Virus record (IMG/VR): IMGVR_UViG_3300031851_000256
Coordinates: 1-20,298 of that record
Strand: one strand, 5' to 3'
DNA from: a virus
Length of the DNA: 20,298 nt
The notes under the pieces are model-generated. The model saw only the letters and a list, made by a program, of their open reading frames with translations, searched no databases and had not been told where the DNA came from. Below, in pieces: positions 9,211 through 20,298 of this stretch. A program made the position numbers and the translations under genes. How positions within the stretch are numbered: the first letter of the stretch is position 1; every line of letters begins with the position of its first letter.

Positions 9211-9588
9211 TTAGCCCTTCTTAGGAGCAGGCTTTTTTTCAGGTTTAACTTTACCTTTAGCTCCTTTTGGAAGCTTGCCTTTACCTTTAGGCTTTTGAGC
9301 ATTCTTACGACGCTCAGCCATGGCTGCCTTACGCTCTTTCTCGTCGAGCTTTCCATCTTTGTTCTTATCGAACCGCTTCATAAAAGCAGCTTTGGCAACT
9401 TTACGTTCGGCTTCACAAAGTTTTCCATCTTTGTTCTTATCGAACTTAGCCATAGCCGGTGGAAGCTTACGCTTACCATCGACCTTTGCAGGTTTTGCTT
9501 TATGTTTTCCATCTTTACTGTGATGGTCAGCTGCACAAACTCCCAGTGTGAGAGATGCAACGATTAGTGTAATTAGTTTATTTTTCAT
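9211..9588 (-). CDS. Exported EF-hand calcium-binding protein
   Basis: This 125-residue protein begins MKNKLITLIVASLTLGVCAA, an export signal. Cys18 could make it a lipoprotein, although V at -1 fits a lipobox poorly. Two canonical EF-hand loops follow, DKNKDGKLCEAE (50-61) and DKNKDGKLDEKE (74-85), each with D1, N3, D5, G6, L8 and E12, so both should bind calcium. The tail of about 33 residues is very basic (K, P, G). I chose ATG 9588 over an ATG at 9681 because the latter lies inside gp32 and would bury the signal peptide. It starts 13 bases after the gp32 stop and is probably read from the gp32 promoter. Such short EF-hand proteins are common in Verrucomicrobiota, Planctomycetota and Lentisphaerota and unusual in a phage. 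Function unknown. Confidence 0.85.
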   Translation of the reverse strand: MKNKLITLIVASLTLGVCAADHHSKDGKHKAKPAKVDGKRKLPPAMAKFDKNKDGKLCEAERKVAKAAFMKRFDKNKDGKLDEKERKAAMAERRKNAQKPKGKGKLPKGAKGKVKPEKKPAPKKG

Positions 9589-9601
9589 TATCTTATATGT
9601 T

Positions 9602-10513
9602 TTAGCTAGATGCCAATTTAGCAAAGTAGCTGAGAGTGTCTTCTGAGTCACCTTCTGAAGTAGTATCATTAGATGCTTCAACAGGAGCTTCGCTTTCTGC
9701 GCTATTCATAACAGGAGCTTCCTTAACAGTATTAAGTTCTACCTGCTGTTCAGTTGAAAGGCCAGTAGCTACTTCAGCTTCACCAATGACTTCAAATAGC
9801 TTACGCTTAAGGTCAGTATATGACTTGTAGTTTTCTGGATCAGTGAACTCACTTAGCTTATGGAGTTTGTTGTATACCTCTTCAAGCTGGGATTCATCAC
9901 CATCAAAGAGAGAAGATGCGCTATCAAACTCAGACTTATCATAGTTACGATAACCTTCTACATTACGAATCTTAAGCTTAAAATTAGCACCAGACCAGAA
10001 ATCAAAAGGATTGATTGGTGTTTCATCTTGGAATTGTGGTTGCATAACATCCATAACTTTATCCATGATTTTCTTACCGAACTCATAAAGGAATACCTTT
10101 CCTTCATTTTCTGGATTACCAGAATCAGAAACAACAAGCACGTTTGAAACGTGATGTAGACGGCGCTTACGCAATCTAGCAAGTTCTTTATCTTCATCAC
10201 GTCCTGTATTCCAGAGCTGTGAGTTCAATTCAGAAACTGGATCTGGCTGACCAATAGAAGTCAATGACCTCTCGATGTACCAACGGCCAGTTGATCCTTT
10301 GAATCCGTGATCCCAGTACCGTACCCATGGTAGATCTTCATCACCACCGGCTGGTAAGAAGCGAAGGACGGCATAACCGTTACCAGCTTTATCAACAGTT
10401 GGTTTCCAGATACGGTCATCGCCGTAGGTTTTCTTTTCGCTGTTATTATCAGCAGCTGAGACAAGTTTTGAGATCGCGTTGTCGCGATTTTGTTTTAGTT
10501 TTTCGAATGACAT
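9602..10513 (-). CDS. gp32: gp32-like single-stranded DNA-binding protein
   Basis: This 303-residue protein matches T4 gp32 (301 residues), which coats single-stranded DNA in replication, recombination and repair. Visible landmarks are the basic N-terminus for cooperative binding (MSFEKLKQNRD), the OB-fold core with NGYAVLRFLPAGGDEDLPWVRYWDHGF and VSNVLVVSDSGNPENEGKVF, then LYEFGKKIMDKV, FWSGANFKLKIRNVEGYRNY, and an acidic C-terminal tail for partner proteins. T4 gp32 has a zinc site from three Cys and one His; this protein has no cysteine at all, so the zinc ribbon is lost, replaced by PVSELNSQLWNTGRD. It has its own promoter at 10564-10592 and an unstructured A-rich leader of about 40 bases, which could serve gp32 autoregulation as in T4. 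Confidence 0.92.
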   Translation of the reverse strand: MSFEKLKQNRDNAISKLVSAADNNSEKKTYGDDRIWKPTVDKAGNGYAVLRFLPAGGDEDLPWVRYWDHGFKGSTGRWYIERSLTSIGQPDPVSELNSQLWNTGRDEDKELARLRKRRLHHVSNVLVVSDSGNPENEGKVFLYEFGKKIMDKVMDVMQPQFQDETPINPFDFWSGANFKLKIRNVEGYRNYDKSEFDSASSLFDGDESQLEEVYNKLHKLSEFTDPENYKSYTDLKRKLFEVIGEAEVATGLSTEQQVELNTVKEAPVMNSAESEAPVEASNDTTSEGDSEDTLSYFAKLASS

Positions 10514-13149: not shown

Positions 13150-13980
13150 TTATAGGCCACGTTTTTTATTGCTTAACAGAAGCAATATTGAAATACTCGA
13201 AAAAAGAGCCGAGCTTATTTCTGGAATGGCGGTGCCTGTCGTGCCATTGAACTTTAGTATGGAAGGGTTCTGAGAGAATGATACACCATTTAAATAAATA
13301 TCGTCACCTTGTTCTGCAAACTCCTCTATGGAGTTTAAAGTGAGTTGAGCGCTCGGGGATAAGTTAACAATGGATCTTTCAATTTGGCTATTAATAGCGT
13401 CTCCACCTCCCCGAAGTGTTAAGCTGCTAGTTGAATCTACATTTATCTCTAGTCCAATTGCAGAAAACATAGCATCCATATTTGATCCTTCGGTTATGTT
13501 TAAAGTTGAATAAACATTATCATCGTCATCCACGCCAGTAAACCCATTGTTGTTTTGGAAAATGAAATCCGTAGATTTTAATGTCACTGAAAATCCATCA
13601 CCAATTTCAATGTTTGAATAGGAAGGACTGTCCTCGAGTATTAAAGCATCTGTTATGCTTAATATATTAGCAATAGGAAAATCTCTATTTAATTCCTGAG
13701 AATCTGATTGTGAAAAATCCCAATTTGGGGCATCATAAAAATCGTAAATTTCTTCTCCGTCTCCGTCCCAAGTAATAACCATGTCTAATTTTTTATCTTT
13801 ACTTTCAGATATGTCTATGATATCCTCATTACTAATCTGAATAGGTCTTTCTGGATTAACTAGTGGATTAATGTTGGGGTCTCCTATTGGATCTATTATT
13901 AGTATATTACCTTCTACAGAGGTTATTACAGCAGCTTTCGTAAAACTAATTAAGATGAGAGATAAAAATACGGCTTTCAT
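13150..13980 (-). CDS. Exported protein with PEP-CTERM-like sorting tail
   Basis: This 276-residue acidic protein has a signal peptide (MKAVFLSLILISFTKA) and a beta-rich body of D/N/S-rich segments such as ITWDGDGEEIYDFYDAP and TLRGGGDAINSQIE. It ends in a tripartite tail: AIPEISSA, a hydrophobic span LFSSISILLLL, and a basic end SNKKRGL. This matches the layout of PEP-CTERM signals, which are cut by exosortase in some Gram-negative bacteria; here the PEP core reads PEI. Such tails are typical of Verrucomicrobiota and some other environmental bacteria and are unexpected in a phage. It is the last gene of a late operon, overlapping the gene before it by 4 bases (ATGA). An anchored surface protein made late in infection is the likely reading; its task is unknown. 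Confidence 0.75.
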   Translation of the reverse strand: MKAVFLSLILISFTKAAVITSVEGNILIIDPIGDPNINPLVNPERPIQISNEDIIDISESKDKKLDMVITWDGDGEEIYDFYDAPNWDFSQSDSQELNRDFPIANILSITDALILEDSPSYSNIEIGDGFSVTLKSTDFIFQNNNGFTGVDDDDNVYSTLNITEGSNMDAMFSAIGLEINVDSTSSLTLRGGGDAINSQIERSIVNLSPSAQLTLNSIEEFAEQGDDIYLNGVSFSQNPSILKFNGTTGTAIPEISSALFSSISILLLLSNKKRGL

Positions 13981-14172: not shown

Positions 14173-15393
14173 TTATCGTGTTATAACATCTGGTACCTGT
14201 GTGACCTGATCATCTTCTTCTAATTCTATTGTTTCTTCTGAGTTCTCAAGATCTGTTTTTTTCTTTTTTTCACCTTCTTCCTCTTCAGTTTCTTCAGATT
14301 CTTCTTCTTCCTCTTCACCTTCAGATTCTTCTTCTTCCTCTTCAGTTTCTTCAGATTCTTCTTCCTCTTCACCTTCAGATTCTTCTTCTTCCTCTTCACC
14401 TTCAGATTCTTCAGATTCTTCTTCAGTTTCTTCAGATTCTTCTTCAGTTTCTTCTTCCTCCTCTTCAGTTTCAGTTTCTTCCTCTTTAGATTCCTCCTCT
14501 TCAGTTTCTTCAGATTCAGTTTCTTCGGATTTTTCACCTTCAGATTCTTCTGTTTCGGTTTCAGTTTCTTCTTTAGTACCTTCTTCTGTGGTTTCCTCGC
14601 CATCACCTTCACCGCCATCACCATCACTATCACCGCCATCACCTTCACCGCCATCACCATCACCTTCGTATCCTTCTTCAGAAGTTCCTATAACGTCGCC
14701 ATAACCTTTTTCAGCATAATCAACTATAGTATCTGTTACAGAAGCGAACGGTTGAAACCCTATAGTTGATTCAGTAAAGTCGTTTAAACTAGAAAACACT
14801 TGATGCTCTTGCTCAGCAACAACAGCAATTTCAGTCCCCTTTTCTTTACTAGTTTTTGCTTGAAAATAAGCGCCACTGCCGATCGACATTGTACCAGCCA
14901 TTCCTATAGTGCCTACCTTTTGAACTGTTTCTTGGACAAATGCGCTTAAACCAGTAGCAGCACTTGCGGTTTGGGCTGTCGCACCCGCCGCTGCTGCCGC
15001 AGCGGTACCCTTTGCTGCCTTATCTAAAATATCTTTGTTTTTCTCGGCTATCTCAGATAGCTTATCCATAGTAGAAGTTTCGGCGGTCTCGCCGGGCTTA
15101 GCCTTAACTGGCTCTTCATCCTCTTTACTATATGCACTATCTTCAGCAGTTTCCTCTTCGTATTCCTCTTCGTCTTCAGAATTGCATTTTTCGCATTCGC
15201 AGGAAGACAGTTGCTGATTTTCTTCAAGAGCTCTAAGCAATCGCCACGCTGCTTCGCGAGCGTTTTCGTCAATATCGGCTACTAGATCTTTGTCTTCTGG
15301 TTGGCAAAACCTTTTAGCAAAGTCTTTAGCTTCTTCAAGAGAAAATTGTGATCTGTTATCATCCTCAGGTGGTTGTGGTATAAAGGTAGCCAT
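14173..15393 (-). CDS. Very acidic repeat protein, first gene of a late operon
   Basis: This 406-residue protein starts at ATG 15393 (MATFIPQPPEDD), 15 bases after a TATAAATA late promoter. Residues 1-75 are charged and helical and end in a cysteine cluster (SSCECEKCNS). A middle part holds an Ala-rich hydrophobic stretch (KGTAAAAAAGATAQTASAAT) and a Gly/Ser part. From about residue 240 come a Gly/Asp repeat (GDGGEGDG twice) and then roughly 110 residues of E, T and S (SEETEEE units), before a short acidic end. The composition suggests a disordered polyanion that could bind divalent cations or mimic DNA. I do not recognise a family. Virion part, DNA mimic or scaffold are all possible. It leads an operon with two membrane or surface proteins. 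Confidence 0.75.
   Translation of the reverse strand: MATFIPQPPEDDNRSQFSLEEAKDFAKRFCQPEDKDLVADIDENAREAAWRLLRALEENQQLSSCECEKCNSEDEEEYEEETAEDSAYSKEDEEPVKAKPGETAETSTMDKLSEIAEKNKDILDKAAKGTAAAAAAGATAQTASAATGLSAFVQETVQKVGTIGMAGTMSIGSGAYFQAKTSKEKGTEIAVVAEQEHQVFSSLNDFTESTIGFQPFASVTDTIVDYAEKGYGDVIGTSEEGYEGDGDGGEGDGGDSDGDGGEGDGEETTEEGTKEETETETEESEGEKSEETESEETEEEESKEEETETEEEEEETEEESEETEEESEESEGEEEEEESEGEEEEESEETEEEEEESEGEEEEEESEETEEEEGEKKKKTDLENSEETIELEEDDQVTQVPDVITR
14256..14672 (-). repeat. Imperfect tandem repeats coding for Glu- and Gly/Asp-rich tracts
   Basis: The 3' third of the acidic gene is made of imperfect repeats. On the plus strand, units like CCTTCAGATTCTTCTTC alternate with CTCTTCAGTTTCTTCAGAT through about 14270-14520, and CACCGCCATCACCATCAC units lie at about 14608-14665. 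The minus strand is purine-rich. Length variation by slippage or recombination is likely here, and assembly errors are possible. Confidence 0.8.
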
Positions 15394-15408
15394 AAGCTTT
15401 ATATCCAC

Positions 15409-16134: not shown

Positions 16135-16770
16135 TTAGGTGAGTTCCTTGATCCTACCAATGACAAGATTGTAAGTTTCCTCAGAAGGATCATCCTTTCT
16201 CCCTGGAGCCACCATCTTATGTGTCAGAATGCCATCTAAGGCGATTCCAAATTTATCCATAAGATAGATACACTTCTTGGCTGCCGAGTCGATCTCGGCC
16301 GCGCTGGGTGTCCTAGAATGAGTATTTCCGTAAAAAGAAATGCCTACACTGTGGCTATTGAGACCACTGATCCCATTCCATTTTGAGCGTCCAGCGTGCC
16401 ACGCTTTTTTAGTGTCATAAACGAACTGCGTTCTAGAACCGTCGGCTGCAATTAGATAGTGGTAACTGACCTGTGAAGCTTTATTTAGAATCCAAGATTT
16501 TGTGCCATCATGGCTTCCGCTACTGTGGTGTAAAACTACAAACTTTGGTTTGATAGTTCCAGATTGGTTTGGACTTGCCTTATACACTTCAGGGTAATCA
16601 TCTTTCAGATCAACGACTGGAGCTTCAGGCTTTTCAGGCTCTCCCTTACCATCGTGCACCAAATTTTCCCAAATCATTTTCCACGTGTTTGGACCGTCGA
16701 TTCCATCCGCTTTAAGGCCTAGCTTGGCTTGTACCTCTTTTACGACATTGTCTTTGCCTTTAAATTTCAT
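16135..16770 (-). CDS. N-acetylmuramoyl-L-alanine amidase endolysin
   Basis: This 211-residue protein has an N-terminal peptidoglycan-binding-like repeat (VKEVQAKLGLKADGIDGPNTWKMIW, residues about 8-35), an acidic proline linker, and a C-terminal Amidase_2 / PGRP domain. Zinc ligands are visible: the first His in KFVVLHHSSGSHDG, and His in DGILTHKMVAPGRKDDPS, with Asp (KDDP) in place of the third ligand Cys of T7 lysozyme, as is common in the family. It cuts the bond between muramic acid and L-alanine. I start it at ATG 16770, since the upstream in-frame TTG at 16776 lies at the predicted transcription start. The late promoter is 9 bases before the ATG. It has no export signal, so it needs a holin. 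Confidence 0.9.
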   Translation of the reverse strand: MKFKGKDNVVKEVQAKLGLKADGIDGPNTWKMIWENLVHDGKGEPEKPEAPVVDLKDDYPEVYKASPNQSGTIKPKFVVLHHSSGSHDGTKSWILNKASQVSYHYLIAADGSRTQFVYDTKKAWHAGRSKWNGISGLNSHSVGISFYGNTHSRTPSAAEIDSAAKKCIYLMDKFGIALDGILTHKMVAPGRKDDPSEETYNLVIGRIKELT

Positions 16771-16779
16771 AGTCAATCT

Positions 16780-16787
16780 TATTTATA
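16780..16787 (-). promoter_or_regulatory. T4-type late promoter of the amidase
   Basis: TATAAATA on the minus strand, with only 9 bases (AGATTGACT) between it and the amidase ATG at 16770. The predicted mRNA would start about 4 bases before the ATG. Confidence 0.7.
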
Positions 16788-16791
16788 CTTT

Positions 16792-17439
16792 TTAAATGTC
16801 TGGTGTACCTTTCCACAGAGATAATTCCCATTGCCTACGTCTCTCCAATCCTTTACGAACTTTTCCGCCGGCTATTCGGTATTTAGGTAAAATATCTTCA
16901 ATGCTTTTATAATTTCCTTCGTTAAGCCTGTCTTCTCCTTCAATCAAACGTTTTAGATTAGTCATTCCACAATTAAAAGCAAATGATGTTAAAGCATTTA
17001 ATTGGTAGTCAGTAAGATCAACAGTAACAACATCCTTTACTTTCTTTCTGACTTCTGCAAGGTGTTTACAAAGCAGATTTTCAGCTTCACTTTCGCTGAT
17101 TTTTCCACTTGAAACAACGGATTTATCTGTACAACCATAGCCTATAGTCATAACTCCTCCAGAACACTTATATGCTGCTTCGCTATAACCTTCAAAAAAC
17201 ATCACTCCTCGTAACATTTTTTTATTCCAATTTATAGATGGTTTAACAACTATTGGTTCTGGTTTAACAAGAACCGGCCTGTCGACATACTTAATGATTA
17301 TTTCAGTTCGAACAACCTCAAGAACTTGAGGAACCTCGACAATTTTTGGAACTTCAACTTTTACAACTTTAGTTTCACGTTTAAGAAAAAACGTAAATGA
17401 AACCAAGCTGGCAACTCCGAGTAAAATTACTAATCTCAT
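16792..17439 (-). CDS. Membrane-anchored GH24 muramidase (phage lysozyme)
   Basis: This 215-residue protein joins an N-terminal membrane segment (LVILLGVASLVSFTFFL, residues 3-19), a stalk of V, P and E repeats (VEVPKIVEVPQVLEV, residues about 27-42, continuing to about 68) and a T4-lysozyme-type domain (about 73-215). The catalytic pattern E-8aa-D/C-5aa-T is met as E (MFFEGY), C (YKCSGG) and T (VMTIGYG), with Cys in the place of T4 Asp20. YQLNALTSFAFNCG and GLERRRQWELSLW are also typical of the family. It would cleave the glycan of peptidoglycan from the membrane outward. Whether the N-terminus is an uncut anchor or a signal-arrest-release segment cannot be decided here. It has its own late promoter and lies next to the amidase. 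Confidence 0.88.
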   Translation of the reverse strand: MRLVILLGVASLVSFTFFLKRETKVVKVEVPKIVEVPQVLEVVRTEIIIKYVDRPVLVKPEPIVVKPSINWNKKMLRGVMFFEGYSEAAYKCSGGVMTIGYGCTDKSVVSSGKISESEAENLLCKHLAEVRKKVKDVVTVDLTDYQLNALTSFAFNCGMTNLKRLIEGEDRLNEGNYKSIEDILPKYRIAGGKVRKGLERRRQWELSLWKGTPDI

Positions 17440-17749: not shown

Positions 17750-18232
17750 TTAGCGAGAAGGATTTGCTTTGAGCCAAGCTTCGATTTTAGACGATCCGAG
17801 AATTTCTCCATCAACCGTAGTGTACACTGTATCAAGATGGTTAAAATATCCCTCAAAACTAAGACACCTGACAGACTTTTTTACGGCAATCTTTGGATGC
17901 AAAGAGCTCGTTTCAGCTGTTTGTGTGATATCAAGGAAGAAACCATCTTTTGCACTCGTAACCCATGTTGGTGGATCCCAAGACTCAACATTTTCGTATG
18001 GGTCTTCAACAACCTCCTGGTGTCTAACTTTTTCCGTGAAATAGTCGTCTTCGCTTTCAATAGCTTTGATAAAAGCGGAAACGTCAACATCATCCGCGAG
18101 GATGTACGTTGTGCCTCCTTTAGCTTTCCAATAATTAGGGCATTCGCCATTACCATCCCAATCATGGGCACCATAATTTTCGTGGATTTGGGTGAAAATC
18201 TGGGTGAATTGTTCTTTAGTTGTGGTAGTCAT
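17750..18232 (-). CDS. Unknown 160-residue protein
   Basis: I start this protein at ATG 18232 (MTTTTKEQFTQIFTQIHENY), since the further upstream start at 18271 lies within the promoter at 18262-18290. It has a segment GAHDWDGNGECPNYWKAKGG followed by TYILADDVDVSAFIKAIES, and a C-terminal beta-rich part; no signal or membrane segment. I do not recognise it. The D-W-D-G-N-G-E stretch looks like a loop that could bind a metal but lacks the full EF-hand spacing. It is a single gene behind its own early-type promoter. Confidence 0.72.
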   Translation of the reverse strand: MTTTTKEQFTQIFTQIHENYGAHDWDGNGECPNYWKAKGGTTYILADDVDVSAFIKAIESEDDYFTEKVRHQEVVEDPYENVESWDPPTWVTSAKDGFFLDITQTAETSSLHPKIAVKKSVRCLSFEGYFNHLDTVYTTVDGEILGSSKIEAWLKANPSR

Positions 18233-18261
18233 AATGTAGTTTCTTGCTTGATTCTGGATAT

Positions 18262-18290
18262 ATTCTAGCACGTTTTTTGCGCTATGTAAA
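18262..18290 (-). promoter_or_regulatory. sigma70-like early promoter
   Basis: On the minus strand TTTACA (18290-18285), 17 bases, TAGAAT (18267-18262), followed by ATATCCAGAATCAAGCAAGAA, close to the leader of the other early promoters. The spacer again carries an imperfect palindrome TAGCGC...GTGCTA. Confidence 0.75.
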
Positions 18291-18644: not shown

Positions 18645-19049
18645 TTAAAGGTAAGTTCCCATGAGGCTAAGCTCGTCATTTACGTCATCTTCGGTATATG
18701 GAACTTCGCCCCATGAGAGGTTGTTGTAGCTTTTCTCCTCGTGGATAGCAGCTGCAGCCTCAAACATACCAGACTCATCGATTGGCTCACTGACGGATTC
18801 CATGGAATCGGTTTTAACAACTGATTTACCTTTGTTAAGAATCGCATCGGCCAACGCAATCATCTTCTTAACGCTATAGTGGCCACGCTCAGCACCTTTA
18901 GCGCAGGGCTTGACGACCGGCCAAGTGTCATTAACAACAAGCCCTTTAGCTTCTGCAGCTTCAACAACCACTTTGCGACGTACGTCACCACTGAGAGTTG
19001 AAAGGATATTGCGGATGATTTGGATGTTTTTCTTGTTTTTTCTATTCAT
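18645..19049 (-). CDS. Unknown 134-residue protein
   Basis: The protein starts with a basic helix (MNRKNKKNIQIIRNILSTLS), then GDVRRKVVVEAAEAKGLVVN and ERGHYSVKKMIALADAIL, and has an acidic C-terminal half. The first 75 residues could be a small DNA- or RNA-binding domain, but I recognise no family. It is first behind the promoter at 19074-19102, with leader CAACCAAGAAGCT-ATG, and probably leads an operon with the 35- and 61-residue genes. Early expression is inferred from promoter type. Confidence 0.7.
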   Translation of the reverse strand: MNRKNKKNIQIIRNILSTLSGDVRRKVVVEAAEAKGLVVNDTWPVVKPCAKGAERGHYSVKKMIALADAILNKGKSVVKTDSMESVSEPIDESGMFEAAAAIHEEKSYNNLSWGEVPYTEDDVNDELSLMGTYL

Positions 19050-19073: not shown

Positions 19074-19102
19074 ATAATAGCATGCTTTCCCTGAAATGTA
19101 AA
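19074..19102 (-). promoter_or_regulatory. sigma70-like early promoter below bent DNA
   Basis: On the minus strand TTTACA (19102-19097), 17 bases, TATTAT (19079-19074). The leader ends CATAATCAACCAAGAAG, identical over 17 bases (19052-19068) to that of the 17679 gene. Phased A-tracts lie immediately upstream. Confidence 0.72.
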
Positions 19103-19107
19103 TAGCC

Positions 19108-19217
19108 TTTTTAGTACTTTTTTAGTTTTTTTTGCGGTTTTTTCATAACTCATTGGTAATCAATGAGTTGCGTGAAAACATTTTTTTCTCTTTTTTTCTA
19201 GTTTTTTGCGGTTTTTT
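19108..19217 (-). promoter_or_regulatory. Helically phased A-tracts (predicted bent DNA)
   Basis: T-runs on the plus strand (A-tracts on the minus strand) lie at 19108-19112, 19118-19123, 19126-19133, 19138-19143, then 19181-19187, 19191-19197, 19202-19207 and 19212-19217. The spacing is close to 10-11 bases within each group, so the bends should add up. The motif TAGTTTTTT(TT)GCGGTTTTTT occurs twice (19123-19143, 19199-19217). No gene is visible in 19050-19398. Confidence 0.7.
19147..19169. repeat. Inverted repeat AACTCATTG / CAATGAGTT
   Basis: AACTCATTG-GTAAT-CAATGAGTT is a perfect 9-base inverted repeat with a 5-base centre, between the two groups of A-tracts. It shares its arm sequence with the repeats at 19232-19334 and could be a protein-binding site. 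Confidence 0.75.
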
Positions 19218-19231
19218 AGTAAAATCTTCGT

Positions 19232-19334
19232 AACTCATTGTGTACCAATACTTTACGATTAACTCATTGATAATCAACAACTTAGGGCGATAGCTACTAG
19301 TTTTAAAATTAAAGTATTGATTATCAATGAGTTA
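19232..19334. repeat. Further AACTCATTG repeats, with an 18-base inverted pair
   Basis: AACTCATTG recurs at 19232-19240 and 19261-19269 and, inverted, at 19325-19333. TAACTCATTGATAATCAA (19260-19277) is the perfect reverse complement of 19317-19334. CAATACTTTA (19246-19255) is likewise inverted at 19310-19319. The set could form cruciforms or bind a dimeric protein. Confidence 0.75.
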
Positions 19335-19342
19335 GAGCAAAA

Positions 19343-19373
19343 CAAAAAAACCCTCACCTTTCAGTGAGGGTTT
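19343..19373 (-). terminator. Rho-independent terminator of the outer-membrane protein gene
   Basis: CCCTCAC-CTTTCA-GTGAGGG gives a perfect 7-base stem, extended by A-T pairs. On the minus-strand RNA it is followed by seven U's. It lies 25 bases beyond the stop of the gene at 19399. Confidence 0.88.
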
Positions 19374-19398
19374 CAATAGATTTTAGGTATTTAGGAGA

Positions 19399-20166
19399 TT
19401 AAAATCCTCGCTTATAACCGAATTGCCATACGCTTTTAAAACCATCTGTTTGGATTTCGTTGTCAACACTACTCAATTGAGCATAAAGTGTGCCTCCTGA
19501 AAGATCGTACGATGCCCGAAGCCCGCCGATAACATATTCGTAATCATCTGAATATTCCCAGGTTTTTCCAAATTCTGCGTGGCCGGTCACATCAACACCG
19601 TATAGTGAAATGATGTCACGCGATACATTGACTGAAACATCGTATGCACCACCCGAAACAAGAGCAAAGTCGACGCCTACCAAGACATCATAAAAATTTG
19701 GTTCGTAGGCGTATCCGACGTTAAACTCAAAATCAGCATCACCGAGATCACCATCAGCATAATTTGTTGCCAGCCGAACACCTGCATAAGTGTCTCGATT
19801 TGCAACTCCGATAAATCCTCCGAAGAAATTGTCTTCTTTTCCGTCAACATACTCTAGAGAAGTGATTAGGTCTTTACCGTATACAGTACCCACTGTTGCG
19901 TTAACCTTACCAAATAGCGCATCGCTGTGTGTAAAAAGACCACCGTCAATCCGCTCTTCGAAAAAGCCGACATCCCCAACTACATTTGTTGGTTGAGTAA
20001 GGTTTAAGTCTAATCCATTAGCAAGGTCGCAAATGACGCTTTTGCTGCATTCTGAGGCTTCGCAGAAAACGATTTCAGGAGCTTCATTTGATTTTGCCGC
20101 AGGCATGCTAATGGCGAACAGGCCAATGATGAGTGCGGTAATGCTTAGTGTTTTTCTATTTTTCAT
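19399..20166 (-). CDS. Outer-membrane beta-barrel protein
   Basis: This 255-residue protein starts at ATG 20166 with a signal peptide (KTLSITALIIGLFAISMPAA) and continues into alternating beta strands separated by short acidic turns: SDALFGKVNATVGTVYGKD, FFGGFIGVANRDTYAGVRLA, FEFNVGYAYEPN, and a last strand VWQFGYKRGF that ends in Phe, the usual C-terminal signal for the outer-membrane assembly machinery. I count about eight to ten candidate strands, a small barrel. The N-terminal mature part has three cysteines (FCEASECSKSVIC). An ATG at 20226 would lie upstream of the signal peptide and is less likely. A phage-made outer-membrane protein may block adsorption by other phages or change the surface; this is inference. 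Confidence 0.82.
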   Translation of the reverse strand: MKNRKTLSITALIIGLFAISMPAAKSNEAPEIVFCEASECSKSVICDLANGLDLNLTQPTNVVGDVGFFEERIDGGLFTHSDALFGKVNATVGTVYGKDLITSLEYVDGKEDNFFGGFIGVANRDTYAGVRLATNYADGDLGDADFEFNVGYAYEPNFYDVLVGVDFALVSGGAYDVSVNVSRDIISLYGVDVTGHAEFGKTWEYSDDYEYVIGGLRASYDLSGGTLYAQLSSVDNEIQTDGFKSVWQFGYKRGF

Positions 20167-20191
20167 ATATTTTATTTTTTTCTTCAATGCT

Positions 20192-20298
20192 TTATGACTT
20201 ATAAATGTCATAAAGAAATTTTTCAAATTGTTCTACTTTTTCTAGGCGGTTAGGCCATAGAATGTATTCTTTTTCGGGGTTAGCTTTTAAATTATTCA
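20192..20298 (-). CDS. End of an unknown small protein
   Basis: An open frame enters at the right edge and ends at TAA 20192: NNLKANPEKEYILWPNRLEK, then VEQFEKFLYDIYKS. The first two bases visible before the first full codon are TG, so an ATG could lie exactly at the edge, which would make a 35-residue protein; a longer protein is equally possible. It ends 25 bases before the outer-membrane protein gene. Charge pattern and end look coding, but no family is recognised. Confidence 0.5.
   Translation of the reverse strand, partial: NNLKANPEKEYILWPNRLEKVEQFEKFLYDIYKS

Follow-up and report, generated by a model that had tools for sequence, protein, structure and literature searches.

Phased A-tracts and four symmetric IHF-type palindromes upstream of a predicted early promoter in a T4-like phage fragment

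Early promoters assisted by IHF are known from phage Mu (Pe) and from lambda (pL). Borrelia Hbb and SPO1 TF1 are homodimeric DNABII proteins with preferred, sharply bent sites, and TF1 belongs to a phage system with sites at early promoters. Early promoters of the T4 type carry A-tract UP elements, a −35 TTTAC and an extended −10, and we know of no T4 early promoter with an IHF-type array. The consensus of IHF itself is WATCARNNNNTTR, and its kinks lie 9 bp apart within a site of 35–40 bp that has an A-tract on the other flank (PMC9519438).

The window analyzed here (the whole stretch of DNA, a complete virus record of 20,298 bases) is a fragment of a T4-like phage. It contains homologues of a baseplate hub/lysozyme, a wedge protein, a head-closure protein, a single-strand binding protein, a helicase loader and a late-transcription co-regulator. 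No match to named phages was obtained by megablast of the window, and Rfam and tRNA scans of the window gave no matches either. A bent palindrome region was found between a minus-strand terminator and a minus-strand early promoter (Table 1). The promoter, which a preliminary description of this DNA had also placed next to the region, is predicted from a −35 TTTACA (19102–19097), a 17-nt spacer and a −10 TATTAT (19079–19074) preceded by TG, with 10 of 12 matches; the hexamers, a spacer within 16–18 nt and A-tracts just upstream correspond, as sequence matches, to a sigma-70 promoter with an UP element. The region was said to contain no open frame, which was essentially right, as just a mechanical ORF of 45 aa crosses it.

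Table 1. Positions of the features in and around the bent palindrome region (window coordinates).
Feature	Position	Strand	Remarks
First gene behind promoter	18645..19049	-	134 aa; without Pfam or PHROG match
Sigma-70-type early promoter TTTACA-17-TATTAT, TG before −10 (predicted)	19074..19102	-	AGTnCTAAAAAGGCTATTTAC common to phage record G001
First group, four phased A-tracts (A on minus strand)	19108..19143	-	~5 bases upstream of −35; UP-element-like position
Unit 1: TAACTCATTG GTAAT CAATGAGTTG	19146..19170		25-bp IHF-type palindrome; centre ~91 bp upstream of predicted start
Second group, four phased A-tracts	19181..19217	-	Between units 1 and 2
Unit 2: TAACTCATTG TGTAC CAATACTTTA	19231..19255		Weakest of the four
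Unit 3: TAACTCATTG ATAAT CAACAACTTA	19260..19284		Strongest; IHF consensus on both strands
Unit 4: TAAAGTATTG ATTAT CAATGAGTTA	19310..19334		IHF consensus, both strands
Intrinsic terminator of preceding gene 19399–20226(−)	19347..19374	-	Sequence match; upstream boundary of element

The gene behind the promoter has relatives at 60–68% identity in five viral contigs. The window genes nearest to the array are of lysis type or unknown, none next to it encodes an initiator, and no repressor gene was recognised in the 20-kb fragment. Adjoining lysis enzymes, amidase_2 and phage lysozyme, are encoded at 16135–17439(−). The protein of 17750–18271(−) was 90% identical in three related contigs (L127, L129, and L130), whereas its right-hand neighbours showed only 44–62% identity, a sign of recent mosaic exchange. 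At 14173–15408(−) a protein with a long Glu/Thr/Ser-rich low-complexity tail is encoded, and the strongest GC and AT skew of the window coincides with this tail. The hexamers TTTACA/TATTAT speak against the promoter being a typical Bacteroidota one, and a host from a related group such as Verrucomicrobiota is therefore possible. The window also encodes a secreted-looking EF-hand protein (9211–9681(−)) and a protein with a PEP-CTERM-like tail recognised by eye (13150–13980(−)); such proteins in a T4-like phage are a possible hint to a Verrucomicrobiota-type host.

Five exact copies of AACTCATTG were found at 19147(+), 19161(−), 19232(+), 19261(+), and 19325(−), all within 187 bp, and none elsewhere in the 20,298-base record, in agreement with the perfect inverted repeat and further copies described before; the backwards control sequence gave 0 matches. 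These repeats resolve into four 25-bp palindromes of the form YAA-N4-TTG-N5-CAA-N4-TTR, centred at 19158, 19243, 19272, and 19322. Units 3 and 4 share the 18-base perfect inverted pair noted previously (19260–19277/19317–19334), and the repeated GCGG-containing unit TAGTTTTTTGCGGTTTTTT occurs in two copies, of which the first has two additional T. In unit 2, the central TCAA of the consensus is kept on neither strand. Markov shuffles of the window contained 8 palindromes in 200 × 20 kb (~0.04 per 20 kb), with a maximum of one per shuffle. The near helical phasing of the A-tracts was borne out: eight T-runs of at least 5 at 19108–19143 and 19181–19217, in two groups of four, have centres that keep phase with a period of 10.5 bp (vector length 0.94), and the density of 8 in 120 bp is the maximum of the window, with 5 as the next best. 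The curvature prediction proposed in the preliminary description was carried out with a wedge model; of all 125-bp stretches of the window, this one is predicted to be the most curved, and for stretches of 60 and 200 bp higher values are found at other places.

Both halves of every unit conform to the IHF consensus, and the whole has the form of a symmetric IHF site; five of the eight half-sites match the consensus perfectly, and all five perfect WATCAANNNNTTR sites of the window are within the array. The geometry T|TG-N5-CA|A puts the two steps exactly 9 bp apart, as in the IHF kinks, and the flanks contain A-tracts or are A/T-rich, as in an IHF-type site of 35–40 bp. The unit spacings of 85 and 50 bp fit a wrap of that length, whereas at 29 bp units 2 and 3 are too close for two simultaneous wraps, as are the 25-bp spacings often found elsewhere. 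A 13-position half-site matrix made from the viral palindromes only was run on 451 bases of lambda attP. The top three positions were AATCAACTACTTA, TATCAATATATTA, and TATCAATTTGTTG, which we take to be its IHF sites H1, H2, and H′. In shuffles, three hits as strong as these turned up 3 times in 1,000, and matrices with permuted columns reached all three sites in 5 of 200 cases. With the full 25-bp matrix, H′ ranked first, with a wide gap to the next position. In the bacterial set of palindromes described below, the linkers of the two halves were nearly independent (0.404 compared to 0.375 ± 0.018 in shuffled pairs), as is expected of protein sites and not of hairpins. An FNR-type site (TTGAT-N4-ATCAA) was rejected, as the spacing here is one base and not four. 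The four palindromes are thus probably symmetric two-sided IHF-type sites for a DNABII protein (IHF/HU family).

Conservation of the repeats in relatives, on which the preliminary description had made its reading depend, was found in part. The array was absent from five contigs with orthologous flanking genes (L126–L130), and it was present in a sixth phage, with the motif class in many others. The sixth is the T4-like G001 (locus L098, 33.7 kb), which encodes a DNA polymerase, a DnaB-like helicase, UvsX and a ribonucleotide reductase. In G001, the DNA between the −10 box and unit 4, both included, is kept at 70% identity and with the same unit spacing (85/29/50); the unit nearest to a perfect palindrome is unit 3 (perfect) in G001 and unit 1 in the window. 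Further scans found the exact block only in G001 and in L050, where the block sequence is the same. Since the block is conserved but no window ORF gave a tblastn match in G001, the predicted promoter and the array behave as one module that travels or is retained together.

In the five contigs without the array, two extra short genes are found in its place, each with its own A-tract promoter, and a different short palindrome, TTCAnnTGAACACC, stands beside early promoters. These contigs contain a series of short early genes with near-identical promoters (TAGTAAAAAAAGTATTTACA..., e.g., L126:7300–8000), and TTCAnnTGAACACC between the genes is a second, different palindrome in the same setting.

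The 25-bp palindrome was found 130 times in 1.06 Mb of viral loci and 323 times in 0.82 Mb of bacterial loci. The loci were fetched with core-containing patterns, so that one hit per locus exists by construction, while the excess, the clustering and the dependence on spacing do not. A 5-nt spacer gave 130 hits in the viral loci compared to 0–2 for other lengths, and 323 compared to 1–5 in the genome loci; a 4-nt gap gave 130 hits in the viral loci compared to 0–6 for other gaps, and across all control versions, in which the core was permuted or the spacer or gap changed, matches numbered 0–6. The matches listed in the initial 17-mer scan of viral contigs were by themselves indistinguishable from chance, and the significance comes from these motif counts with their controls. 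Alignment on the core showed TAA/TTA to stand out at the outer positions, and in the bacterial set the flanks are A/T-rich out to about ±21. Clusters of at least two units were intergenic in 139 of 158 cases, counts that are approximate for viruses because their genes were called by a simple ORF script. A-tracts were more frequent beside arrays (1.9 vs. 1.1 per 120 bp), with at least four tracts in 17% vs. 3.4%. The commonest unit spacing in viruses was 25 bp, i.e., end-to-end tandem (35 cases), and large viral records contained many dispersed clusters, three examples having 25, 18, and 12 units in 274, 160, and 68 kb, respectively. Viral units were nearer to the stop of the upstream gene than to the next start in 190 of 291 cases, and were equally dense between convergent and divergent genes; the class as a whole is therefore not tied to promoters. 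One unit was observed in crAssphage (BK010471.1, ~95982–96006; L471:5983–6007), intergenic and directly upstream of the replication gene repL. A literature search for the 25-bp motif and the 11-bp core gave no relevant paper among those covered.

Among the matches listed in the bacterial scan, nearly all were in Bacteroidota; Fibrobacter and Verrucomicrobiales were represented by one record each. A Microscillaceae MAG of 6.8 Mb (G017) contained 1,657 strict 25-bp copies, at loci such as L131 and L135, which have nearly independent linkers and no shared flanks and look like a genome-wide protein site. Two other MAGs contained 54 and 63 strict copies, and 31 of 79 genomes of the order of G017 contained at least one; control matches were 0 in all of these. 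In a phylum-wide Bacteroidota sample, the motif was present in 5 of 99 genomes, so that its density varies strongly by lineage. Seven copies in four genomes were found among 96 Verrucomicrobiota genomes (control 0), and most sampled Bacteroidota and Verrucomicrobiota genomes had none or few. A PF00216 protein was matched in all eight bacterial genomes checked, in the 1,657-copy MAG only weakly and partially, and none was encoded in 50 array-bearing viral records. The occurrence in Bacteroidota genomes with 0 control matches makes a host factor plausible, and because the motif is also bacterial and no array-bearing viral record encodes a PF00216 protein, the phage proteins that the preliminary description proposed for binding assays are less likely binders than a host protein.

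On these grounds, we consider it an even prospect that the region is an upstream control element of the minus-strand early promoter, bound by a host DNABII protein. Such a protein (IHF/HU family) would bind the four palindromes with its two arms entering the DNA at T|TG and at CA|A, two steps separated by 9 bp, and would fold the DNA sharply at centres that lie about 91, 176, 205, and 255 bp upstream of the predicted start. Together with the eight phased A-tracts, some of them in UP-element position, these folds would wrap the upstream DNA and thereby set how strongly RNA polymerase uses the promoter. If the binder is a DNABII protein, it very likely comes from the host, and we lean towards an action of the array on this particular promoter. 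The protein, its bending of the DNA and its effect on transcription are what we infer here, activation being more likely than repression. The earlier proposal that bent DNA with repeated palindromes marks a strongly controlled promoter gains support from the block kept in G001 and from the IHF-family form of the sites.

The main rival explanation, which we judge unlikely, holds that a dimeric helix-turn-helix regulator, either MarR-like or a phage repressor, uses the palindromes as operators and silences or represses early promoters from dispersed sites, comparable to the stoperators of mycobacteriophages, which are dispersed sites for the phage's own repressor. The prevalence of 25-bp tandem spacing suits a 25-bp footprint better than a wrap of 35–40 bp, and the many dispersed clusters per large phage record and the differing palindrome TTCAnnTGAACACC beside early promoters of the related contigs would likewise fit such operators. 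However, wherever the IHF consensus specifies a base, the conserved positions and spacings agree with it, and the matrix from the viral palindromes finds the IHF sites of lambda attP. The motif is also common to many viral contigs and to bacteria, unlike phage-specific operators, and the half-site centres are 15 bp apart, an unusual distance for helix-turn-helix dimers.

The region had also been proposed as a replication origin of the phage, in which the palindromes on bent DNA would be iteron-like; this proposal fared poorly, and we now regard it as improbable. Bent DNA, repeats and a promoter do occur together here, IHF sites are present in known origins such as oriC, the crAssphage unit lies just upstream of repL, and G001 is a replication-gene segment. 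Against this, GC skew shows no change across the site, a weak test as the record ends 1 kb to the right; no initiator is adjacent, and the five relatives with orthologous flanks are without the array. Besides, an origin would be expected at one or a few sites per genome, whereas large phage records of other lineages (the window's own genome being incomplete) contain many dispersed clusters; it is therefore unlikely that such sites generally serve as the one origin or the one master site of a genome.

As improbable is an extragenic palindromic repeat (REP- or MITE-like) or a hairpin or terminator-like RNA element without promoter function: the units are intergenic in viruses and bacteria alike, reach a very high copy number in one genome, fold strongly as RNA in this region (z −6.2) and show a slight excess of pairing linkers in viruses (0.459 compared to 0.408), but in the bacterial set the pairing of linkers falls short of significance and lends little support to an RNA reading, and the array, standing after a terminator and before a promoter, is probably little transcribed. 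REPs are described as GTAG- or CGTC-tagged palindromes of 20–40 bp (PMC3733652); the 25-bp units are without either tag, and their copies have only fixed positions in common, with differing linkers and flanks, and are thus not copies of one mobile sequence.

Rather than a replication origin, the region is then probably an architectural control site taken over from the host. Tentatively, we further suggest that many phages with hosts of the Bacteroidota type carry dispersed upstream arrays of a symmetric 25-bp DNABII bend site that seems not to have been described, that this site is genome-wide in some of those hosts, and that the phages use the host's nucleoid protein as ready-made promoter architecture. 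If true, YAA-N4-TTGA-N3-TCAA-N4-TTR would be the DNA code by which a nucleoid protein recognizes specific sequences in bacteria from which no sites of this kind seem to have been described. Control regions in the genomes of uncultured phages could then be located by it, and a T4-like phage that depends on the DNA architecture of its host for early gene expression would be at hand as a testable case.

Compared to H1, H2, and H′ of lambda attP, the sites are alike in their consensus halves, the 9-bp kink spacing, the A-tract flanks and the clustering in a phage control region, whereas the consensus is present here on both halves as a full palindrome and in lambda on one side only. By its form, the full palindrome is suited to a symmetric or homodimeric protein. 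In this the array resembles the systems of Hbb and TF1, with a symmetric protein and sharply bent sites, without the sequence preference being known to be the same; they differ in that, with a PF00216 gene in 0 of 50 array-bearing viral records, the protein would here be the host's. At Mu Pe and lambda pL, too, a sigma-70 phage early promoter is preceded by an IHF-type bend and by A/T-rich DNA, with one or two one-sided sites there and four symmetric sites over 190 bp here. With T4-type early promoters, finally, the predicted promoter has in common the −35 TTTAC, the extended −10 and the A-tracts upstream, a layout that is the same in the five related contigs.
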